From positions 1-62,372 of the forward strand of contig JALRBW010000049.1 in NCBI GenBank assembly GCA_023257625.1: a stretch of 62,372 nt of DNA, written 5' to 3'. Below the pieces are notes generated by a model. It did not search any database. It saw only the letters and a list, made by a program, of their open reading frames with translations, and had not been told where the DNA came from. Below, one piece after another: positions 41,108 to 56,468 of this stretch. The DNA is from Flavobacteriaceae bacterium (GTDB lineage Bacteria > Bacteroidota > Bacteroidia > Flavobacteriales > Flavobacteriaceae). The position numbers and the translations under genes were made by a program. The first letter of the stretch is position 1. Every line of letters begins with the position of its first letter.

Positions 41108-42202
41108 ATGAATTGGGAAGGCATAATTGGGCAAAAGCAATTAATTGTACAGCTGGAAAAACTTATCCAAACAAACCAAGTTCCCCACGCACAACTTATA
41201 AGTGGTCCTTTTGGATATGGTATGCTTTCAATCGCCCTATCGTTTAGTAAAAATCTATTGTCCTTTGGAGCCCATGAAGCTCACCACTCATATTTAGCAG
41301 ATTTACATTTTATCTACCCTGTTGTAAAAAAAGGGACTGAAAAACATGCCTATTCAAGTGATTATGCCACCGAATGGGATTCTTTTATTAAGAAATCTCC
41401 ATATGGAAACTATACTGATTGGTTTGAGTCAATTGGTGCTGGAAATAAACAAGGGCTCATAGGGGTTGCAGAAATTGAGAAGTTACATCAAAAAATGCAA
41501 CTAAAGTCTTTTGATGGGAATGGAAAAGTATGTATCCTATGGGGTGCAGAAAAAATGAATTCTTCTGCAGCTAACTCCTTTTTAAAGCTTTTAGAAGAGC
41601 CCCCAAAAAACACCTTTTTTATTCTTTTAGTAGAAGATAATGAACAGGTTTTACCAACCGTTCATTCACGTTGCCAAACTTTTGCTTTAGGACCCATTGA
41701 ACATCAGGTTTTGCTAGAAAAAATCCCTCCCACTTTTGCAGGAAATAAAGATCAACTAGTATCCCTTGCAAATGGAGATTATGCAAGACTTCTCCGCTTA
41801 CTTTCTGAAGAGGGTGTTGGTGCTTATGAAGCATTATTGGTTGAAGGATTAAGAACTGCCTTTAAGGCTCGAGGAAATAAAAGGGTGGTCTTGTCTTTAA
41901 TGGAATGGGCTCAAAAAATATGTGTCCTCGGTCGTGAAGAACAAAAGGATTTTTTAGCCTTTTCTATTCAATTTTTTAGAGATGCTTTTTTAACAAATTA
42001 TGCTCTTGATAAAATCATCCATTTTAAAGCTGAAACAGATTTTGACCTTACAAAATTTTCTCCATATGTTAATACAAATAATATAAGACCCTTAGTTCAA
42101 TTATTTGAGGACGCGTATCGTTATATTCAAGGAAATGCAAATGCAAAAATGGTGTTCACTGATTTAAGTCTACAGATATCAAGACTTATCAATTCAAAAT
42201 GA
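41108..42202 (+). CDS. holB: DNA polymerase III delta' subunit (HolB-like)
   Basis: A 364-residue clamp-loader-type AAA+ protein: IIGQKQLIVQLEKLIQTNQVPHAQLISGPFGYGM at the start (Walker A degenerate, as usual for delta'), WGAEKMNSSAANSFLKLLEEPPKNTFFILLVED (sensor/SRC region) and VHSRCQTF. It helps load the beta clamp. The end overlaps the convergent methyltransferase gene by 9 bp. Confidence 0.9.
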   Translation: MNWEGIIGQKQLIVQLEKLIQTNQVPHAQLISGPFGYGMLSIALSFSKNLLSFGAHEAHHSYLADLHFIYPVVKKGTEKHAYSSDYATEWDSFIKKSPYGNYTDWFESIGAGNKQGLIGVAEIEKLHQKMQLKSFDGNGKVCILWGAEKMNSSAANSFLKLLEEPPKNTFFILLVEDNEQVLPTVHSRCQTFALGPIEHQVLLEKIPPTFAGNKDQLVSLANGDYARLLRLLSEEGVGAYEALLVEGLRTAFKARGNKRVVLSLMEWAQKICVLGREEQKDFLAFSIQFFRDAFLTNYALDKIIHFKAETDFDLTKFSPYVNTNNIRPLVQLFEDAYRYIQGNANAKMVFTDLSLQISRLINSK

Positions 42203-43030
42203 TTTTTTAAAAACAAAAATTAGAGATGAAAACTTCTTGTTATAAACAGATTTAAGCGTAAAATAAACACCTTTAATAAAACCAATAAGTACGGATAAAT
42301 TTGTCCCTTTTGCCCTTTCAGATAAATAACTAATATAAAATGCATCTAGCCAAAGCGGTTTTTGGGAAATACATTCAAAACCATGGATTTTTGCCAACTT
42401 TTTTAAACCATGGGGTGTAAAATGCCATAAGTGTCGTGGGACATCTAAAGCAGCCCAATCTGAAGCATAATGTCTTGCGTCATTACTTTCCCAATTGGGG
42501 ACTGCAATTATCAACTTTCCGGAAGTGTCTAAAAGTGTATTTAACGATTTAAAAACATAGTTAAGGTTGGGAAGGTGTTCTAAAACGTGCCAAAGGGTGA
42601 TTAGTGAATACTTTCTTTCTTTGGGCACGTTACTTATTGATTTATAATGTGTTATGTTGATTGTATGTTTTACTGCCTCATTATAAGGTTCAACAACCTC
42701 AATTTGAAAGCCTTTTTTTTTCATAAATTTTGCAAAGGTGCCTGTTCCGGCACCAATGTCTAATATTATTCCCGATGAGTAATATAAACGTATAAGCTTC
42801 CATTTCCTGAATAACATTATATGTTGAAAAACTCTATAAACTCTATCAATTAAAGTCTTATGATAAATTTTATGAGAATCATATTCTTTAGAATTGTAAT
42901 AAGACTCTAAGGGTAGATTTGAAGAAACATCTGTTTGGGCTAATCCTCTTTCTTCATCCCAATAAATTGAAAATTCTTTTTTTGAGACCAAATGGTCTTT
43001 AGCTTTGAAAACTAAAGTTTTTCCTTTCAT
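42194..43030 (-). CDS. Class I SAM-dependent methyltransferase
   Basis: A 278-residue protein with the SAM-binding GILDIGAGTGTFAKFMKKKG (about 89-108), an acidic VVEPYN, and the LWHVLEHLPN motif typical of the Methyltransf_23/11 group. An N-terminal extension (about 1-60) and C-terminal hydrophobic region differ from the minimal fold. Related proteins in flavobacteria act on glycans, lipids or quinones; the substrate is not predictable. A parS site lies directly upstream of its start. Confidence 0.8.
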   Translation of the reverse strand: MKGKTLVFKAKDHLVSKKEFSIYWDEERGLAQTDVSSNLPLESYYNSKEYDSHKIYHKTLIDRVYRVFQHIMLFRKWKLIRLYYSSGIILDIGAGTGTFAKFMKKKGFQIEVVEPYNEAVKHTINITHYKSISNVPKERKYSLITLWHVLEHLPNLNYVFKSLNTLLDTSGKLIIAVPNWESNDARHYASDWAALDVPRHLWHFTPHGLKKLAKIHGFECISQKPLWLDAFYISYLSERAKGTNLSVLIGFIKGVYFTLKSVYNKKFSSLIFVFKKSF

Positions 43031-43032
43031 AG

Positions 43033-43048
43033 TGTTCCACGTGAAACA
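43033..43048. other. parS site (ParB-binding centromere), copy 1
   Basis: TGTTCCACGTGAAACA is an exact match to the bacterial parS consensus TGTTNCACGTGAAACA bound by ParB/Spo0J. It sits in the 24-bp gap between the mnmG stop and the methyltransferase start. ParA and ParB are not encoded in this window. Confidence 0.88.
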
Positions 43049-43054
43049 ATTCTT

Positions 43055-44926
43055 TTAGCGTCCCATTGCAACTAACAAAACGCTAATATCACTAGGATTA
43101 ATTCCGCTAATTCTAGAAGCTTGAGCAAGAGTTGATGGACGTATCTGATCTAATTTTTCTTTAGCTTCATAGGATAAAGAAGCCAAACAATCAAAATTAA
43201 AACCTTTAGGAATTTTGATGTTTTCTAAACGTTTTAACTTGTCTGCGTTTTTGCGCTCTTTATCTATGTATCCCGCATATTTAATTTCAATTTCAGCTTG
43301 TTCAAAAGCTTCATCTGTTATGCTGTTATCTAACAAATACTGATGTAATTCATGCTGCATAAAAATATCAGATCGATTAATGCTAGGGCGAGCTAGTAAT
43401 TTAGAAAACTTGTCTGTTTGTTTTACGGTTTGTTCGTTTTTAGATAACAATAGAGCGTTGGTTTTCTCAAGGTTAAAACTTGTGTTTTGTAAAAACTGAA
43501 CTAAGTTGATTCTTTGTCTGTTTTTATTTTCCACTTGGCGAAGTCTTTCATCATCTGCTAAGCCTAATGTGTGTGAAATTGGTGTTAATCTTTCGTCTGC
43601 ATTGTCTTGTCGTAATAAGGTTCGATATTCTGCTCTTGACGTAAACATTCTGTATGGTTCTTTTGTGCCCTTTAAAATTAGATCGTCAATTAAAACGCCT
43701 ATATATGCTTCTTCTCTGCCTAAAACAAAAGGGGCTTTCTCTGTACATTTTAAATGAGCATTGATTCCCGCCATGATTCCTTGTGCTGCAGCTTCTTCAT
43801 AACCTGTTGTTCCATTTATTTGACCTGCAAAAAATAGGTTTTTGATTGACTTTGTCTCTAGGTTATGATACAATTGTGTGGGCGGAAAATAATCGTATTC
43901 TATGGCATATCCAGGCCTGAAGAATTTTACGTTTTCAAAACCCTTAACCTTTTTAAGAGCGCGGTATTGAATATCGTCTGGAAGAGAAGTAGAAAATCCA
44001 TTTACATATACTTCAACCGTATTCCAACCCTCAGGTTCTACAAAAATTTGATGTTGTGATTTATCGCTAAAACGATTGATTTTATCTTCAATAGAGGGGC
44101 AATACCTTGGTCCTGTGCTTTGAATTGAACCATTAAACATTGGGGAACGATCAAATCCGGATCGTAATATATCATGTACTTCATCACTTGTGTGGGTAAT
44201 GTGGCAGCTTCTTTGTTTCTTTAAAGGTAATGTATGAGAGGAGTATGAAAATTTACTTGGGCTTTCGTCTCCGGGCTGCTCTTCCATTTTAGTGTAATCT
44301 AATGACCGGCCATCAACACGAGGCGGTGTTCCTGTTTTCATTCGGCCAGACTCAAAGCCATGGTTCAATAAAGATTGTGTTAACCCTATGGCTGCTTTTT
44401 CACCTGCTCTTCCTCCTCCAAAATTCTTTTCGCCAATATGGATTAAGCCATTTAAAAAAGTTCCATTAGTCAATATTACTGTTTTACTATAAATTTTTAA
44501 ACCTAATGATGTTACAACACCAACTATTGTTTGCTTTTCTACAAGAACATCAACAATCATTTCTTGATAAAAATCAAGGTTTTGTGTTTCTTCTAACATC
44601 TGCCGCCACTCAAGAGTAAAAAGGCTCCTGTCAGATTGCACTCTGGGGCTCCACATCGCGGGACCCTTTGATTTGTTTAGCATTTTAAATTGAATTGCCG
44701 AACGGTCAGAAACTATGCCGCTATATCCTCCCAAGGCATCTATCTCTCGTATAATTTGTCCCTTGGCAATTCCCCCCATAGCTGGATTACACGACATTTG
44801 TGCCACGTTTTGTAAATTCATTGTGACTAAAAGTGTTTTAGACCCCATGTTGGCGGCGGCAGCGGCGGCTTCACAGCCTGCGTGACCCGCTCCTACAACA
44901 ATTACATCGTATTTTGATTCAAACAT
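43055..44926 (-). CDS. mnmG: tRNA uridine-5-carboxymethylaminomethyl modification enzyme MnmG
   Basis: A 623-residue FAD protein with the dinucleotide-binding VVGAGHAGCEAAAAAANMG at 10-28, signatures GGIAKGQIIREIDALGG and GRAGEKAAIGLTQSL, RMKTGTPPR, and the C-terminal helical domain that binds MnmE (KIPKGFNFDCLASLSYEAKEKLDQIRPSTLAQASRISGINPSDISVLLV). With MnmE it modifies the wobble uridine of several tRNAs. The start overlaps ybeY by 8 bp. Its two ends are flanked by parS sites. Confidence 0.98.
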   Translation of the reverse strand: MFESKYDVIVVGAGHAGCEAAAAAANMGSKTLLVTMNLQNVAQMSCNPAMGGIAKGQIIREIDALGGYSGIVSDRSAIQFKMLNKSKGPAMWSPRVQSDRSLFTLEWRQMLEETQNLDFYQEMIVDVLVEKQTIVGVVTSLGLKIYSKTVILTNGTFLNGLIHIGEKNFGGGRAGEKAAIGLTQSLLNHGFESGRMKTGTPPRVDGRSLDYTKMEEQPGDESPSKFSYSSHTLPLKKQRSCHITHTSDEVHDILRSGFDRSPMFNGSIQSTGPRYCPSIEDKINRFSDKSQHQIFVEPEGWNTVEVYVNGFSTSLPDDIQYRALKKVKGFENVKFFRPGYAIEYDYFPPTQLYHNLETKSIKNLFFAGQINGTTGYEEAAAQGIMAGINAHLKCTEKAPFVLGREEAYIGVLIDDLILKGTKEPYRMFTSRAEYRTLLRQDNADERLTPISHTLGLADDERLRQVENKNRQRINLVQFLQNTSFNLEKTNALLLSKNEQTVKQTDKFSKLLARPSINRSDIFMQHELHQYLLDNSITDEAFEQAEIEIKYAGYIDKERKNADKLKRLENIKIPKGFNFDCLASLSYEAKEKLDQIRPSTLAQASRISGINPSDISVLLVAMGR

Positions 44927-45362
44927 TTGAAATTTGTTTCACGTGGAACATTTTAATAAAAGCGTTTTCTTTTTTTCTCATCTCAATTTTTTGTTTATCC
45001 GTTTTGTCATTCCACCCCATGCAATGCAAAGGCCCATGCGAAATTATCCTAAGCGTCTCATTTTCAACACTTTCGCCGGTTTCTTTAGCTGAGTTTTGAA
45101 TCGCCCAATAGGAGATGTAAAATTCTGCTTCTAATTCTTGCTCTTTAGAATAATCAAAAGTGATGATATCTGTATGAGTATCGTGATTTAAATACTTTTT
45201 ATTCATTTCCAAAAGAGATTCTTTAGAGACAAAATTATATTGAAGCCGTTTGTATTGATAGCCTTGTTCATGAATAAAATCATGAAGAGTGGCTATTAGT
45301 CTTAATAGCTCTATACATTTCGGTAAATCAACAAAAGTTATTATCGCTTTTATTTTTTGCAA
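44919..45362 (-). CDS. ybeY: Endoribonuclease YbeY (rRNA maturation factor)
   Basis: A zinc endoribonuclease of 16S rRNA maturation. The core is clear: NKKYLNHDTHTDIITFDY and the zinc-binding RIISHGPLHCMGWNDKT (HGxLHxxGxD variant). No ATG lies near the expected N-terminus. The frame runs back to a GTG at 45449 inside gltX; TTG 45362 is the nearest conventional start and gives 147 residues. Homologues usually begin MI-x-F, which would align with an ATA codon at 45344. The C-terminal residues FHVKQ are encoded by a parS site. Confidence 0.85.
   Translation of the reverse strand: MQKIKAIITFVDLPKCIELLRLIATLHDFIHEQGYQYKRLQYNFVSKESLLEMNKKYLNHDTHTDIITFDYSKEQELEAEFYISYWAIQNSAKETGESVENETLRIISHGPLHCMGWNDKTDKQKIEMRKKENAFIKMFHVKQISNV
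44935..44950. other. parS site (ParB-binding centromere), copy 2, inside ybeY
   Basis: On the plus strand TGTTTCACGTGGAACA, whose reverse complement is the exact consensus TGTTCCACGTGAAACA. It lies 8 bp upstream of the mnmG start and is read in frame as part of the YbeY C-terminus (M-F-H-V-K-Q). It is inverted relative to the copy at 43033, about 1.9 kb away. Confidence 0.88.
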
Positions 45363-45390
45363 ATATAACGGTTTTGAAACCTGAATTATA

Positions 45391-45418
45391 TTGATTCGCC
45401 AAGAAGCGCTTATCTTTG
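45391..45418 (+). promoter_or_regulatory. Putative promoter of gltX
   Basis: TTG (45391-45393), a 17-nt spacer and TATCTTTG (45411-45418) match the Bacteroidota consensus. The ATG at 45428 follows 9 nt after the box. This placement also argues against the TTG at 45416 as the gltX start. Confidence 0.62.
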
Positions 45419-50789: not shown

Positions 50790-52940
50790 TTAATCAAGCG
50801 GAATAAAATCAAGAAACCTTTTTGCTACACTCACTTTTTTTACTTTTATTTTAATAGGGTCACCTAATTGATACACTTTTTGTGTTTTTTTCCCTATATA
50901 AGCATGGTGATCTATATCATAAATATAATAATCATCTAAGAGGTCAACTGTTCTAATCATTCCCTCACATTTGTTTTCAGTAATCTCAACGTACAAGCCA
51001 CGATCAGTTACTCCTGAAATAATTCCTTCGAAAACTTGCCCAATTTTATCTTGCATAAAAACCATTTGCATGAATTTAATTGAGTCTCTTTCTGCTTTTG
51101 TGGCAAGTTGTTCTCTTTGAGAAGAATGAATACAAGCCTCATTGAGATAAGATTCACTTTGTCCCGCTTTATTGTTAAGAAATTTTTCTAGAGCACGATG
51201 TACTAATATATCAGGATATCTTCTTATTGGTGATGTAAAATGAGTATAAAAATCAAATGAAAGGCCATAATGACCTATATTATTGGTACTATATTCTGCT
51301 TTTGACATGCTTCTTAAGGCAAGCGTATCAATTAAGTTTTGTTCTCTTTTGCCCTGACTCTGTTTCAGGAGTGTATTTATCTCTTTATGAACATTTTTCC
51401 CTTTTGGATTAAAACGGTAACCAAAACCAGAAACTAATTTTTTTAAGTTAAAAAGTTTCTGAGGATCTGGTTCGTCATGAACCCTATAAACAAAGGGAAT
51501 TTTATTTTCTTTAAAAAGCGTAGCAACCCTTTTATTAGCTAATAACATAAACTCTTCTATCAGTTTATTTGAATCTTTAGCACTTTTAAAGAATACTGAT
51601 TCTGGTTTTTGTTCTTGGTTTAATTGAAAAGCAACTTCTTGACGATCAAAAGATATTGCTCCATTTATCATCCTTTTATTTCTTAACCTTTTTGCAATTG
51701 CATTAAGGGTATCTATAGAAATTTTTACCTCTTGTGGTAAGATATAAGATTTAGACGTGAGTGATACAGATGCATCAACTTCATTTATATTTTTATCAAT
51801 TACATATTGAACCTCTTCATATGAAAAACGATAATCTGAATGAATTACTGTTCTTCCAAACCATTCATTTTTTATTTCTCCTTTATCGTCAAGCAGAAAA
51901 ATTGCTGAAAAGGTAAGTTTATCTTCATTAGGCCGTAAAGAACATAAAGTGTTGGATAGTATTTCTGGAAGCATTGGTACAACTCGATCTACTAAATAAA
52001 CAGAGGTTGCCCTATTATATGCTTCTTGATCTAGTATTGAATTTGGTGTTACATAATGAGATACGTCAGCTATATGAATTCCTACTTCAAAAAGGACGTC
52101 ATTAAGTTTTTCAAAAGAGAGAGCATCATCAAAATCCTTTGCGTTTATAGGATCTATAGTAAAAGTTAGTTTTTGTCTACAATCTTTTCTTCTTTTAATT
52201 TCATTTTCATCAATTTTAGCAGGAAGTAAAACCGCTTCTTTTTCAACTTCATCTGGGAAAGTATACGGAAGGCCGTACTCATGAAGAATCGCGTGTATTT
52301 CTGTTTCTGATGTTCCTGGTACGCCTAATGATTTAATAATTTTTCCGTCAGGGCAGTCATTAAATGGTTTCCAACCATTAAAAATCACAACAACCTTGTC
52401 TCCGTTTTTATATTGTTCTAAATACTGCTTATCTACAAAAAAATCTGTATATACATTACTCCCTTTACAAACAACAAAAGCAAAATCTTTTTGTTTTTCT
52501 AGAATACCAACATATTCTTTAGTGCTTCTTTCAACTATACTTTCTATAATACCAACGAAATTATTCTTTTCATGATGAACACTTACTTCTACAAGATCTC
52601 CATGGAGGGCTTTATTAAGATTTTTTTTTGGAATAATTATTTCTTCATCATAACTCTCTAAATTAACTTTCCCTTTTCCGGTTGGTAAAATACTTAATGT
52701 TGTTTCAAAGGTTTTGGTGAGATTTTGGATATAATGATATTGCCCTTTTTTTTGCTCTCCTATTTTGTTCTTTTTACTAAGAATTGCTAAGGTTTTTATA
52801 ATTGTATTTCTTCCTTTAGTATCATTAATTTCAAGGGCTGAAGCTATTTGTTTATAATTTACAATCGCTTTAGGTTTTGACTTTAAGTAAATGAGAATTT
52901 TTTCTTCTATTCTTTTTCGTTCCTTTTTTTTATTTGACAT
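50790..52940 (-). CDS. rnr: Ribonuclease R
   Basis: A 716-residue 3'-5' exoribonuclease. It has an N-terminal winged helix and cold-shock domains (about 1-220), a catalytic RNB domain with TIDPINAKDFDDALSFE (metal-binding Asp cluster) and GIHIADVSHYV, then HFTSPIRRYPDILVHRAL, and a C-terminal S1 domain (GQVFEGIISGVTDRGLYVEI). It degrades structured RNA. The promoter lies in the AT-rich gap upstream. Confidence 0.96.
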   Translation of the reverse strand: MSNKKKERKRIEEKILIYLKSKPKAIVNYKQIASALEINDTKGRNTIIKTLAILSKKNKIGEQKKGQYHYIQNLTKTFETTLSILPTGKGKVNLESYDEEIIIPKKNLNKALHGDLVEVSVHHEKNNFVGIIESIVERSTKEYVGILEKQKDFAFVVCKGSNVYTDFFVDKQYLEQYKNGDKVVVIFNGWKPFNDCPDGKIIKSLGVPGTSETEIHAILHEYGLPYTFPDEVEKEAVLLPAKIDENEIKRRKDCRQKLTFTIDPINAKDFDDALSFEKLNDVLFEVGIHIADVSHYVTPNSILDQEAYNRATSVYLVDRVVPMLPEILSNTLCSLRPNEDKLTFSAIFLLDDKGEIKNEWFGRTVIHSDYRFSYEEVQYVIDKNINEVDASVSLTSKSYILPQEVKISIDTLNAIAKRLRNKRMINGAISFDRQEVAFQLNQEQKPESVFFKSAKDSNKLIEEFMLLANKRVATLFKENKIPFVYRVHDEPDPQKLFNLKKLVSGFGYRFNPKGKNVHKEINTLLKQSQGKREQNLIDTLALRSMSKAEYSTNNIGHYGLSFDFYTHFTSPIRRYPDILVHRALEKFLNNKAGQSESYLNEACIHSSQREQLATKAERDSIKFMQMVFMQDKIGQVFEGIISGVTDRGLYVEITENKCEGMIRTVDLLDDYYIYDIDHHAYIGKKTQKVYQLGDPIKIKVKKVSVAKRFLDFIPLD

Positions 52941-52957
52941 ATAAATTTTTAACTCAA

Positions 52958-52965
52958 CAAAGGTA
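52958..52965 (-). promoter_or_regulatory. -7 promoter box of rnr
   Basis: Minus-strand TACCTTTG (52965 down to 52958) matches TAnnTTTG, 17 nt from the rnr ATG. It shows that most of the AT-rich gap lies outside the core promoters. Confidence 0.5.
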
Positions 52966-53162
52966 CAACATTACCAATGCTTGTTTATTAACATTATATA
53001 CACCATTATTTATAATCTTTTAAAAAATCTAAAAAATTATGTTTATTATGATAGGCAGTTAATTGTAAGTATAATTTTTGTTTAAAGTTTTTGTTTTCTT
53101 TAAATCTTGTTTTTTATTTTTTAATATATCATGATTATAAACAACATAAAATGTTTATTATC

Positions 53163-53182
53163 AATTATTTATATAAATAATT
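53163..53182. repeat. Perfect 20-bp AT-only palindrome
   Basis: A self-complementary stretch made of AATTATTTAT followed by its reverse complement, entirely A/T, at the middle of the AT-rich gap. It could be a cruciform or unwinding element, or a dimeric-regulator operator. It is not placed as a terminator because it has no GC stem. Confidence 0.7.
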
Positions 53183-53253
53183 AAAGTATGTTAATATATG
53201 TTTTTGTTTATAAAAAAACCAAAAAAAAAAGTGAAAAATGTTTATTTCCTCCA

Positions 53254-53399
53254 AAAACGTGTTTATAAAAAAGCAACAAAAAAAGATTAAATAAGGAAGC
53301 TTTTCATTTAAAATTAATAATCAGTTTTTAAATTATAAAAAACAATAATTATTTATATTTTTTATTCACACATAATTACTATAACTATAAACACGTTTT
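53254..53399. repeat. Inverted 14-bp repeat in the rnr-rpiB gap
   Basis: AAAACGTGTTTATA at 53254-53267 recurs as its exact reverse complement at 53386-53399, about 118 bp apart. Each arm includes one of the TGTTTAT motifs extended by ACG. The DnaA-box match TTATTCACA lies between the arms. Confidence 0.75.
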
Positions 53400-53418
53400 A
53401 CACAAAAGCAAGAATATG

Positions 53419-53426
53419 TACATTTA
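53419..53426 (+). promoter_or_regulatory. -7-like box of rpiB
   Basis: TACATTTA is one base from TAnnTTTG and ends 15 nt before the rpiB ATG, the same layout as at other starts in the window. Confidence 0.35.
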
Positions 53427-53441
53427 CAAAAAAACAATACA

Positions 53442-53873
53442 ATGACAATAAGTATCGGAAACGATCATGCGGGACCGGAATATAAAAAAGGAATTGTTAG
53501 CTTTTTAAAAAAAGCTGGGCATACAATAATCAATCATGGAACAGAAACATCAGAAAGTGTGGATTATGCAGATTTTATACATCCTGTAGCGAAAGATGTT
53601 TCAGAAGGAAAAGCATCTTTTGGTATAATAATATGTGGTAGCGGAAATGGTGCAGCAATGACAGCAAATAAACATCAAAAAATAAGAGCTGCTCTATGTT
53701 GGAGTGATGAAATTGTACATTTAGCTAGGGAACATAATGATGCAAATATTTTAAGTCTACCTGCTCGTTTCATTTCTTTACCACAAGCAATAAAAATGGT
53801 TGAAACTTTTTTAAACACCTCTTTTGAAGGAGGTAGGCATCAAAAAAGAATTAATAAGATTCCTTGCACTTAA
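53442..53873 (+). CDS. rpiB: Ribose-5-phosphate isomerase B
   Basis: A 143-residue protein of the RpiB/LacAB family: ISIGNDHAGPEYKKGIVSFLKKAGH, DYADFIHPVAKDVSEGKASFGIIICGSGNGAAMTANKHQKIRAALCWSDEIVHLAREHNDANILSLPARF. The active-site Cys lies in IICGSGNG and the conserved HxxxR-like loop is present. It interconverts ribose 5-phosphate and ribulose 5-phosphate. The stop overlaps the next start (TAATG). Confidence 0.94.
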   Translation: MTISIGNDHAGPEYKKGIVSFLKKAGHTIINHGTETSESVDYADFIHPVAKDVSEGKASFGIIICGSGNGAAMTANKHQKIRAALCWSDEIVHLAREHNDANILSLPARFISLPQAIKMVETFLNTSFEGGRHQKRINKIPCT

Positions 53874-54325
53874 TGCAATTTTTAATTAAAAAATTTTTTG
53901 AATTACACTCAGAAGAGCTTTATGATATTCTAGCGCTTAGATCAGAAATTTTTGTTTTAGAACAAAAATGTATATACCAAGATATAGATTATCGTGACAA
54001 AGATGCAATTCATATAATTGGGTATGAAAATAAAGAGATTATTTGTTATGCTCGGATATTATCACCAGGCACAGTATATCCAAAACATACGGCTATTGGA
54101 AGAGTTTTGGTACGTGAACAATATAGAAAAAGGCAAAATGGTAATACTTTGATGAAAAAAGCAATATTTGTATGTCAAAAAGAGCATTTATCATATCCAA
54201 TTAAAATTTCAGCTCAATCTCACTTAGACAAGTTTTATTCTGAATTAAACTTTAAATCGACAGGGAAACAATATATAGAGGACGGAATACCCCATCAAGA
54301 AATGATTTATATTTCTTCTTTATGA
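53873..54325 (+). CDS. ElaA-like GNAT acetyltransferase
   Basis: About 150 residues from ATG 53873, which shares its A with the rpiB stop; a TTG three codons earlier is less likely. It contains LHSEELYDILALRSEIFVLEQKCIYQDIDYRDKDAIH, the ElaA signature start, then AIGRVLVREQYRKRQNGNTLMKKAI (acetyl-CoA loop, with a variant RxxxNGxxL) and a C-terminal YIEDGIPHQEMIY. The substrate is unknown. It overlaps the convergent rnpA by 19 bp. Confidence 0.85.
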   Translation: MQFLIKKFFELHSEELYDILALRSEIFVLEQKCIYQDIDYRDKDAIHIIGYENKEIICYARILSPGTVYPKHTAIGRVLVREQYRKRQNGNTLMKKAIFVCQKEHLSYPIKISAQSHLDKFYSELNFKSTGKQYIEDGIPHQEMIYISSL

Positions 54326-54642
54326 TTTATTTTTTTAAAAAGAGTTTTACAATCAGCGTCTAGTTTTTGAAAATAAGGAAGCGAATTACCCGAAAAAATT
54401 AACATTCCAACACCTAAAAAAAAAGAGTCTTTATTTACTTTACTTAGTGCAGCACGGAGCTGTCTTTTGATTCGATTACGATCAACAGCCCGTCGAAATT
54501 TTGTTTTTGAAACAGCAACACCAACAAAAAAATCCGTGTGCGTTTCCTTTATAAAATAACGCAGCACAAGATCTCCGCTTTTTTGAGTAAAACCAGATTC
54601 AAAAAGAGAATCAATTTCTTTTTTGCTCTTTAATTGTTGCAC
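54307..54642 (-). CDS. rnpA: Ribonuclease P protein component
   Basis: A 111-residue protein with the family core FFVGVAVSKTKFRRAVDRNRIKRQLRAALS (RNR motif: DRNRIKR). It supports RNase P RNA in tRNA 5' maturation. The start appears to be GTG at 54642. The classical rpmH neighbour is absent; instead it lies 5 bp downstream of an M1 aminopeptidase gene. Confidence 0.93.
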   Translation of the reverse strand: MQQLKSKKEIDSLFESGFTQKSGDLVLRYFIKETHTDFFVGVAVSKTKFRRAVDRNRIKRQLRAALSKVNKDSFFLGVGMLIFSGNSLPYFQKLDADCKTLFKKINHKEEI

Positions 54643-54647
54643 TTTTA

Positions 54648-56468
54648 TTATTGTTTTTGCGCGCTAAAATAATTATCACTTTTATCTACATCGGCCATTA
54701 AATTACTTGGGTCAATTACAATTGTTTCAATTTGTTCTTTAGGATAATTTAAAACCAAAGAATACATAGGATTGCCCCAAACCCAGTCTTTATGAACCTT
54801 CCAATTCATAGTATAAGGATTAACTTTTTCGCCTCGCATTAAATTAAACGGTATATAATGAAGTTCGCTAGTACCATTTTTGTAAACAACCAATATTTCA
54901 AGGGGCATTGGCATTAATTCCTTTCTAATTAGAGAAACCACAGAAGAATTAGCGTCGCCCACAATTGAAGCGATACCATAATCAATTTTGTTCGTTGTTT
55001 GTGTCCAATCGGTTAAAAACCACTGTAGTTGAAGTCCAGACACACGCTCAGCAATACGACGTAAATCATTCGGTTGAGGGTGTTTAAATTTCCATTCTGA
55101 ATAATAAGTTCGCAAAATATCAAAAAGAACATCGTTGCCGACTAAATAACCCAACTGACCTAAAAAAACAGCTCCTTTATTGTATGCGGTACTTTCATAA
55201 GCAAAGTTATGCGAATAGCGGTTAGCATTAGTGCTCTGAGGCATTTCAACACCAGATGCCGCTAAATTATAATACCCTCTGTAAGATCCCTCTAATGGAA
55301 AATCGCGGTTTTGTTTTAAGATGTCATTTGAAGCTAAAGATGAAATAAAAGAAGTAAACCCTTCGTCCATCCATTCATGTTTTGTCTCATTAGTGGCTAA
55401 AACATGTTGAAACCAAGAATGTGCTAACTCATGGGCAGTAACACCAAACAAAGAGCCGTAATTTCGACCCCCTGTAATAAGAGTTAACATTGCATATTCC
55501 ATTCCACCATCACCCCCTTGTACAACACTATATTGCTTGTAAGGGTAGTCACCAATTTTTTCATTGTAATAAGTCATTAATTCTGCTGTGTGTGGCTGAA
55601 GTTTTTTCCAATTGTCAATAATTTCTGGGTCATTTTTATAAAAGAAATGCAACGTTACTCCGTTTGGCCCCGGATAGGTATCATGTATATAATTATCATC
55701 TGCTGCCCACGTAAAATCATGGACCTGAGGCGCAATAAAATGCCATGTTACTTTTCCTTGTTTTGATTTTGGTTTTTCTCTTAAAGAATACCCTTTTCCA
55801 ATATCCTCTGCATTTTGTAAGTATCCGCTTGCTGCAACGGTATAGTCTTTATCAATTGTAATTTTTACATCAAAATCACCCCAAACCCCATGAAATTCTC
55901 GCCCTGTGTAGGGATCTGTATTCCACCCTTCAAGGTCGTATTCGGCCATCTTAGGGTACCATTGTGCCATTGAAAAAGCAACTCCTTCTTTCGAGTTTTT
56001 TCCAGCTCTTCGAATAACATCAGGAACATGACCATTGAAATTTAATGCAAATGTAGCTTCTTGTCCGGGACCGATTGGCTCATTTAATTCAACCTCTAAG
56101 ATAGTTTCAGAAAAAACAGTTTTGACCGGCACACCGTTTTGCGTTATATCGCTTACTTTTAAATAACCCTGTTGATCTTGTTGTAGAGAATCTAGATCAA
56201 TGTCAAATCGGCGATTTTTGTCGGCCGCATTTTTTAAACGAATTGCCATTTCACTTCCAGGCTGAAAGGCATTAAAGTAAAGGTGATAAAATACTTTGTG
56301 TAATGTCTCAGGAGAATTATTGGTATAACGAAGAATTTGAGTGCCTGAGTAATTTGCAGACTCTACGTCAAGCGCAACCTCCATAGTATAATTAACAGCT
56401 TGTTGCCAATATTGAGAATATGACGATAGGACTAATAAAGAAAAAAAGAAGGACAAAACAGTTTTCAT
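54648..56468 (-). CDS. Secreted M1 family metallopeptidase
   Basis: About 606 residues from ATG 56468 (MKTVLSFFFSLLVLSSYSQ signal; a longer frame reaches 56495). The gluzincin core is intact: GGDGGMEYAMLTLI (GxMEN-like, with an unusual residue order), HELAHSWFQHVL and downstream WMDEGFTSF supplying the third zinc ligand. The N-terminal beta-domain (about 30-220) and C-terminal region match the family. It removes N-terminal residues from peptides in the periplasm. It probably shares a transcript with rnpA. Confidence 0.9.
   Translation of the reverse strand: MKTVLSFFFSLLVLSSYSQYWQQAVNYTMEVALDVESANYSGTQILRYTNNSPETLHKVFYHLYFNAFQPGSEMAIRLKNAADKNRRFDIDLDSLQQDQQGYLKVSDITQNGVPVKTVFSETILEVELNEPIGPGQEATFALNFNGHVPDVIRRAGKNSKEGVAFSMAQWYPKMAEYDLEGWNTDPYTGREFHGVWGDFDVKITIDKDYTVAASGYLQNAEDIGKGYSLREKPKSKQGKVTWHFIAPQVHDFTWAADDNYIHDTYPGPNGVTLHFFYKNDPEIIDNWKKLQPHTAELMTYYNEKIGDYPYKQYSVVQGGDGGMEYAMLTLITGGRNYGSLFGVTAHELAHSWFQHVLATNETKHEWMDEGFTSFISSLASNDILKQNRDFPLEGSYRGYYNLAASGVEMPQSTNANRYSHNFAYESTAYNKGAVFLGQLGYLVGNDVLFDILRTYYSEWKFKHPQPNDLRRIAERVSGLQLQWFLTDWTQTTNKIDYGIASIVGDANSSVVSLIRKELMPMPLEILVVYKNGTSELHYIPFNLMRGEKVNPYTMNWKVHKDWVWGNPMYSLVLNYPKEQIETIVIDPSNLMADVDKSDNYFSAQKQ

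Follow-up and report, generated by a model that had tools for sequence, protein, structure and literature searches.

Predicted chromosomal parS sites bracket mnmG in the origin region of a Flavobacteriaceae bacterium, with dnaA and parAB far away in complete relatives

Chromosomal ParABS systems with parS sites are well known from Bacillus (Spo0J/parS) and Caulobacter (ParB/parS), and a survey of parS sites was reportedly made by Livny et al. in 2007. A close neighborhood of parAB with parS and the origin is a common layout, but not an essential one. The locus described here shares with these systems the 16-bp consensus, a three-domain ParB, a ParA encoded directly upstream of ParB and a location of the sites in the origin region. 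It differs in that parAB and dnaA are distant from parS and origin, in that often just one pair of sites brackets mnmG, and in the behavior of the condensin profile SMC_prok_B, which remained below its cut-off in all genomes that were tested.

In Bacteroidetes, oriC is commonly distant from dnaA, according to passages of PMC4755523. In parts of two further reports, Ori-Finder 2022 together with GC skew led to an oriC assignment at mnmG, namely in Mariniflexile litorale (PMC11278836) and Algorimicrobium (PMC12843772); in the former, dnaA does not fit the skew and a figure legend swaps the labels. A Hi-C study in gut bacteria including Bacteroides caecimuris (PMC10197239) describes, in the passages available, parS clusters at the ori domain that do not always coincide with dnaA, and two Bacteroidetes without a known condensin homologue. 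All three points resemble our observations; however, the ori calls of that study use parS themselves, and its passages contain neither a link between parS and mnmG nor a survey of the class. Among the matches listed in a search of open-access literature, no paper stated that parS is located at mnmG across the class while parAB and dnaA lie in other places. Since this search covers open papers only, it is no proof of novelty. The element is of a known kind in a less familiar layout, and for two flavobacteria an oriC next to mnmG has been published before.

Two palindromic sites on either side of mnmG

The window, i.e., the whole stretch of 62,372 nucleotides analyzed here, carries on its minus strand, in this order, ybeY, mnmG and a methyltransferase gene. 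The rRNA maturation RNase gene ybeY (44919..45395; TIGR00043, 75.7 bits, and PF02130) has an approximate start codon, for which the ORF lister gives 45449. It is followed by mnmG (gidA), encoding a tRNA modification enzyme (43055..44926; TIGR00136, 840.9 bits), and by the methyltransferase gene (42194..43030; Methyltransf_23, PF13489, 95.1 bits). Site 1, TGTTCCACGTGAAACA, at 43033..43048, takes up the greater part of the 24-bp spacer that separates mnmG from the methyltransferase gene; the start codon of the latter follows after 2 bp. Site 2, TGTTTCACGTGGAACA, at 44935..44950, is located within the final ybeY codons (reading F-H-V-K-Q), with 8 bp separating it from the mnmG start codon downstream. 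The two sites, to which no strand is assigned, are mutual reverse complements, and both match the parS consensus TGTTNCACGTGNAACA with 0 mismatches, forming the 16-bp palindrome TGTTYCACGTGRAACA. With both sites occupied, a bound protein would contact the beginnings of both mnmG and the methyltransferase gene.

The initial annotation had regarded the sites as exact parS matches and two such matches by chance as very unlikely. Both statements hold, the first by the comparison above and the second by 100 dinucleotide shuffles of the window, which gave 0 matches to the consensus. The pair furthermore represents the sole perfect matches in the whole genome (1,929,534 bases in 75 contigs, 90.9% complete), and a back-to-front control pattern had 0 perfect matches across the same 1,929,534 bases. 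When up to 2 mismatches were allowed, 10 sites were found genome-wide compared to 9 for the reversed control. Therefore, beyond the perfect pair only the lone 1-mismatch site elsewhere in this genome, TGTTTCACGTAAAACA (contig C1, 1022-1037), merits attention.

Conservation of the sites in relatives and across the class

Conservation of the flanking pair in relatives had been proposed as a check in the initial annotation. We used the best 80 mnmG loci from one search, mostly from Flavobacteriaceae, and scored a flank as occupied when it contained a site with at most 1 mismatch, on the upstream side within 600 bp; 77 loci had more than 150 bp of flank. An upstream site was present in 69/77 loci (perfect in 54/77) and a downstream site in 66/80 (perfect in 37). 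Both flanks were occupied in 61/77 loci, and the pair is thus conserved. Within 1.3 kb of mnmG we counted 180 sites in 349,406 bases, compared to 10 in the remaining 1,202,389 bases of the 80 loci, a 62-fold higher density. Five of the 10 distant sites are one coding motif. A 1-mismatch site 4.5-5.6 kb downstream of mnmG in five loci, TCTTCCACGTGAAACA, was considered as a third parS and rejected, since it encodes LPRETAGY in a long ORF in all five, so that coding conservation explains it. Positions 5 and 12, which were unconstrained in the search, are C/T and A/G, respectively, in 172 of 172 flank sites. The information content inside the 16-mer is high but partly circular, because the sites were found by that very pattern; our conclusions therefore draw on site density, on location and on the unconstrained positions 5 and 12 rather than on it.

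A whole-genome scan of 50 of the 80 source genomes, hand-picked and mostly on longer contigs, revealed perfect sites in 41, with 74 sites in total and 0 for the control pattern. The number of perfect sites per genome equals the number at the mnmG locus in all genomes but G044, whose two perfect sites lie on another contig than mnmG, and hence 72 of the 74 are located at mnmG. Many copies scattered over the genome, named in the initial annotation as an argument against its own reading, were accordingly not encountered, neither here, where both perfect sites lie at mnmG, nor in these relatives. Nine genomes lack a perfect site; in eight of them a perfect 14-bp core remains at mnmG, and G049 shows no more than a degenerate copy upstream of the gene. 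These counts also bear on the simplest alternative, namely that the palindromes are functionless products of chance. We found no point in its support; the shuffles and the control pattern in the 50 relatives yielded nothing, and the placing is conserved across families. Chance is refuted by this conservation, and we assign it a negligible probability.

In some Flavobacterium-type genomes, mnmG is accompanied by an array of 5-11 parS-like sites (at most 1 mismatch) rather than by one pair (L011, L014, L017, L022; G406, contig C1, 1001668-1004183). The records of L017 and L055 are titled Limnohabitans and Chitinophaga pinensis, while their mnmG loci are Flavobacterium-like (68-69% mnmG identity, parS arrays); our guess is that these records are probably mislabelled bins.

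Palindromes within a ybeY-mnmG-methyltransferase transcript might also function as RNA hairpins, either as terminators or as mRNA elements. In line with this idea, the palindrome is longer by at least 4 bp per side in 13 of 172 flank sites, and in one locus (L009) a long terminator-like hairpin surrounds a 2-mismatch copy. However, the palindrome is not extended by a single base pair in 66 of the 103 upstream and in 41 of the 69 downstream sites. Among 161 core-intact sites, 58 have bases at positions 5 and 12 that do not allow Watson-Crick pairing (the two positions being only weakly associated, Fisher p = 0.051), and in 37 of 68 loci the ybeY frame runs into the upstream site. A role as RNA hairpins is hence very improbable. 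As a separate observation, some parS or parS-like copies in L042, L043, L078, L017, L024 and L009 lie inside longer palindromes that add as many as 13 bp on each side, which gives the impression of a second use as hairpin or terminator.

We extended the analysis to the class Bacteroidia with a sample of 396 genomes, from which 43 were taken from the best-scoring mnmG positions listed, one per family, and scanned for the core GTTNCACGTGNAAC. The core was present in 40 of these 43 genomes from 43 families, and in 34 of 43 it was found within 5 kb of mnmG (26 among the matches listed plus 8 from separately inspected stretches). The three genomes without the core are G122, G160 and G119. G119 has its mnmG close to the end of a contig. 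The other two carry CACATG-centred parS-like sites next to mnmG or the methyltransferase gene (8817-8832 in L267, from G122; 10396-10512 in L269, from G160). One further genome, G282, has no site at up to 1 mismatch, although ParB is present.

The close contact of both sites with start codons, together with their usual position at mnmG, would also fit operators of a transcription factor, or of a ParB acting only as repressor, that control mnmG and its neighbor without any centromere function. The class-wide survey speaks against such operators, since 6 of the 40 core-bearing genomes have no core within 5 kb of mnmG. This is clear in three of them, where core and mnmG are separated on one contig by 26 kb (G206), 21 kb (G241) and 43 kb (G075). 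It is less clear in G327 (sites by ybeY on another contig, masked run near mnmG), G161 (15 kb around mnmG without a core site) and G104 (where mnmG and a site, each close to the end of a contig, may be adjacent). In G206 a perfect site is found at a distance of some 5.6 kb from rnr, and mnmG, ybeY and a methyltransferase gene form a group of their own that has no sites; the site thus tracks none of them there. The same arrangement is seen in G346, a complete genome of the same family from the other genome set, with a perfect site about 5 kb from rnr and mnmG 25 kb away without a site. Hence, in G206, G241, G075 and G346 the site clearly fails to follow the displaced mnmG. In addition, perfect sites occur at no other gene of the genome studied here. 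Because the sites stay apart from a relocated mnmG, a chromosomal site is favored over an mnmG operator, and we consider the operator explanation improbable.

Position of the replication origin

The initial annotation had also placed the window in an origin-proximal region. We therefore turned to complete relatives, in which dnaA proved to be far from parS: it starts at base 125 with parS at 1.376 Mb in G335, and at base 25 with parS at 1.853 Mb in G262. In five sampled complete genomes (G335, G364, G286, G262 and G406) both dnaA and parB are at least 0.6 Mb away from the region of the skew origin and parS, and dnaA was rejected as an origin landmark in the complete genomes examined. The third-codon GC skew, plotted separately for genes on the plus and minus strand over 20 stretches of each genome and judged by eye, switches from negative to positive near parS at 1.03-1.37 Mb in G335, 1.58-1.64 in G364, 1.84-2.05 in G262 and 0.97-1.02 in G406, the latter plot being noisy; the switch of G286 lies 0.1-0.3 Mb beyond its parS. 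A replichore model, with gene strand and replichore as terms on 4-fold sites, the origin scanned in 0.1 Mb steps and the terminus set opposite, gave origin and parS positions (in Mb) of 1.3 and 1.38 for G335, 1.6 and 1.59 for G364, 2.9 and 2.76 for G286, 1.9 and 1.85 for G262, and 1.0 and 1.00 for G406. The model origin is thus no more than 0.14 Mb from parS in five of five sampled complete genomes. With parS taken as the origin, the likelihood ratios were 66 (G335), 62 (G364), 29 (G286), 439 (G262) and 145 (G406). The origin-proximal placing is supported by these relatives, while the skew within the window itself is mixed.

On a finer scale, the GC change point of G262 is located at 1,860.5 kb (LR 177), 8 kb from a perfect parS and 1.5 kb from an AT-rich gap upstream of rpiB. 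The fine change points of G335 (1,359 kb, LR 16) and G364 (1,603 kb, LR 14) coincide with neither parS nor the gap. Within the stretches inspected around parS, the AT-richest 400 bp correspond to the gap upstream of rpiB in G335, G364 and G262, at 32, 39 and 9 kb from the nearest parS, respectively.

The corresponding gap of the window, at 52941..53441, is our candidate oriC. These 501 bp with 17% GC separate the divergent genes rnr (ribonuclease R, minus strand, 50790..52940; TIGR02063, 709.4 bits) on the left and rpiB (ribose-5-phosphate isomerase B, plus strand, 53442..53873; TIGR01120, 143.7 bits) on the right. The gap contains the most AT-rich 500 bp of the window, lies about 8 kb from parS and harbors clustered DnaA-box-like repeats of the forms TGTTTAT and T[TA]ATAAACA, with 8 copies of TGTTTAT where 0.77 are expected; the strict TTATNCACA occurs once only. 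The T-A skew of the window has its change point inside the gap, between 52971 and 53391 (LR 75.4). Three syntenic loci (L004, L005 and L016) show a T-A shift of the same sign at the same gap (LR 30, 20 and 32) with flat GC skew, and in L058 and L059, which extend one gene beyond the gap, the T-A shift is absent. Among the complete genomes, G262 and G406 share the T-A sign of the window, G335 has the opposite one, and no such skew is seen in G364 or G286. When the origin was set at the gap, the GC skew of the window shifted weakly in the wrong direction (LR 12, side -0.218), in a test that beyond the gap comprises 9 genes; the plain GC skew of the window is too noisy. Because the T-A sign varies among species and the weak GC shift is opposite, we put the assignment of oriC to this gap no higher than likely. 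Compared to parts of PMC11278836 and PMC12843772, which place oriC at mnmG, it is here the AT-rich gap by rpiB, 8-40 kb from parS, that is proposed as the origin itself.

As a general mark of oriC, the TGTTTAT repeats were rejected, since they are absent in 7 of 14 rnr/rpiB gaps (L004, L016, L036, L068, L075, L078 and L083). The looser TTATNNACA is more frequent than expected in all of 10 hand-chosen gaps or segments, though barely in L036 (1 vs 0.54). In four Chryseobacterium-type loci rnr and rpiB are not divergent. Three Tenacibaculum loci have AT-rich rnr/rpiB gaps of about 2 kb (L054, 17990-19981; L056, 17960-19917; L057, 18020-19973), each with three copies of TTATCAACA and 7-8 of TTAT[CTA][CA]ACA (fewer than 0.8 expected). 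These gaps are good oriC candidates in a cultured genus. At about 54307-54663 of the window (minus strand), 1 kb from the candidate oriC, we noticed a small unlisted ORF that resembles rnpA, the gene of the RNase P protein, by its RNRIKRQLR motif. In many bacteria rnpA is a gene of the origin region.

ParA, ParB and the predicted role of the sites

ParA and ParB are encoded next to each other on contig C55 of the same genome. The ParA ATPase (L003, 620-1384; AAA_31, 226.5 bits) lies directly upstream of ParB (L003, 1381-2277), which has an N-terminal, a helix-turn-helix and a dimerisation domain (ParB_N, PF02195; HTH_ParB, PF17762; ParB_C, PF23552). Its nearest solved relatives in the PDB, by sequence, are ParB and Spo0J proteins. 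ParB scored above the family cut-off in 60 of 61 genomes checked, the exception being G012, a 1.0 Mb record that is probably incomplete. A genome lacking ParB, which the initial annotation had listed as an objection to its reading, is therefore not what we found. Proximity of parAB to parS and origin was not observed: parB is on another contig in this genome, and in the 9 complete genomes with both located it is 0.80-1.29 Mb away from parS (16-31% of the chromosome, with the contig treated as a circle). In total, parB was located in 11 single-contig genomes, 9 of which have a site at up to 1 mismatch. The SMC_prok_B profile reached its cut-off in none of 10 Bacteroidia genomes tested, and weak matches below the cut-off were seen in all 10. 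This result agrees with the condensin absence described in passages of PMC10197239.

Some relatives (Tenacibaculum, Polaribacter, Kordia and L080) have relaxed, CACATG or CTCGTG forms of the site. A switch in ParB specificity was rejected as their cause, because the helix-turn-helix region has no corresponding change among the Flavobacteriaceae-type members of 50 aligned ParBs and one GTTYCACGTGRAAC core is kept at mnmG in each variant genome. In G122, with its CACATG-type site by mnmG, ParB reads TEGQARPLL where most others read SMGHGRA or SMGHARA. In this one case site and ParB possibly changed together.

The two 16-bp palindromes are the only copies of an exact parS consensus in a genome that encodes ParA and ParB, their place is conserved and the skew origins of relatives agree with it. 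For these reasons we predict with high confidence that they are chromosomal parS sites of a ParABS system in the origin region. They almost certainly form a bacterial centromere at which ParB docks, and such sites have been kept in the origin region in many Bacteroidia families, with parAB and dnaA far away. As known from the ParABS family, ParB would load onto both sites, close as a CTP-dependent clamp and spread across mnmG and its neighbors, and ParA would move ParB so that freshly copied origin regions separate. More speculatively, in Bacteroidia, for which no standard SMC condensin was found here, ParB could load mainly at this pair, and the arrangement on both sides of mnmG could be important in its own right. 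Clamps entering from both ends might cover or silence the 1.9-kb mnmG segment, tie tRNA modification to origin segregation and recruit another condensin-like machine, a scenario that we regard as rather unlikely.

For a large and little-studied class, these data name a probable grip point of the chromosome for segregation and, within tens of kb, a probable start of replication. They identify dnaA as the wrong origin landmark in the complete genomes examined. The sites at mnmG offer a ready target for ParB ChIP-seq and for the question how Bacteroidetes align their chromosome arms without known condensins, which is raised in parts of PMC10197239. Finally, parS at mnmG is a simple reference point when genomes are to be rotated or growth is to be estimated from coverage.
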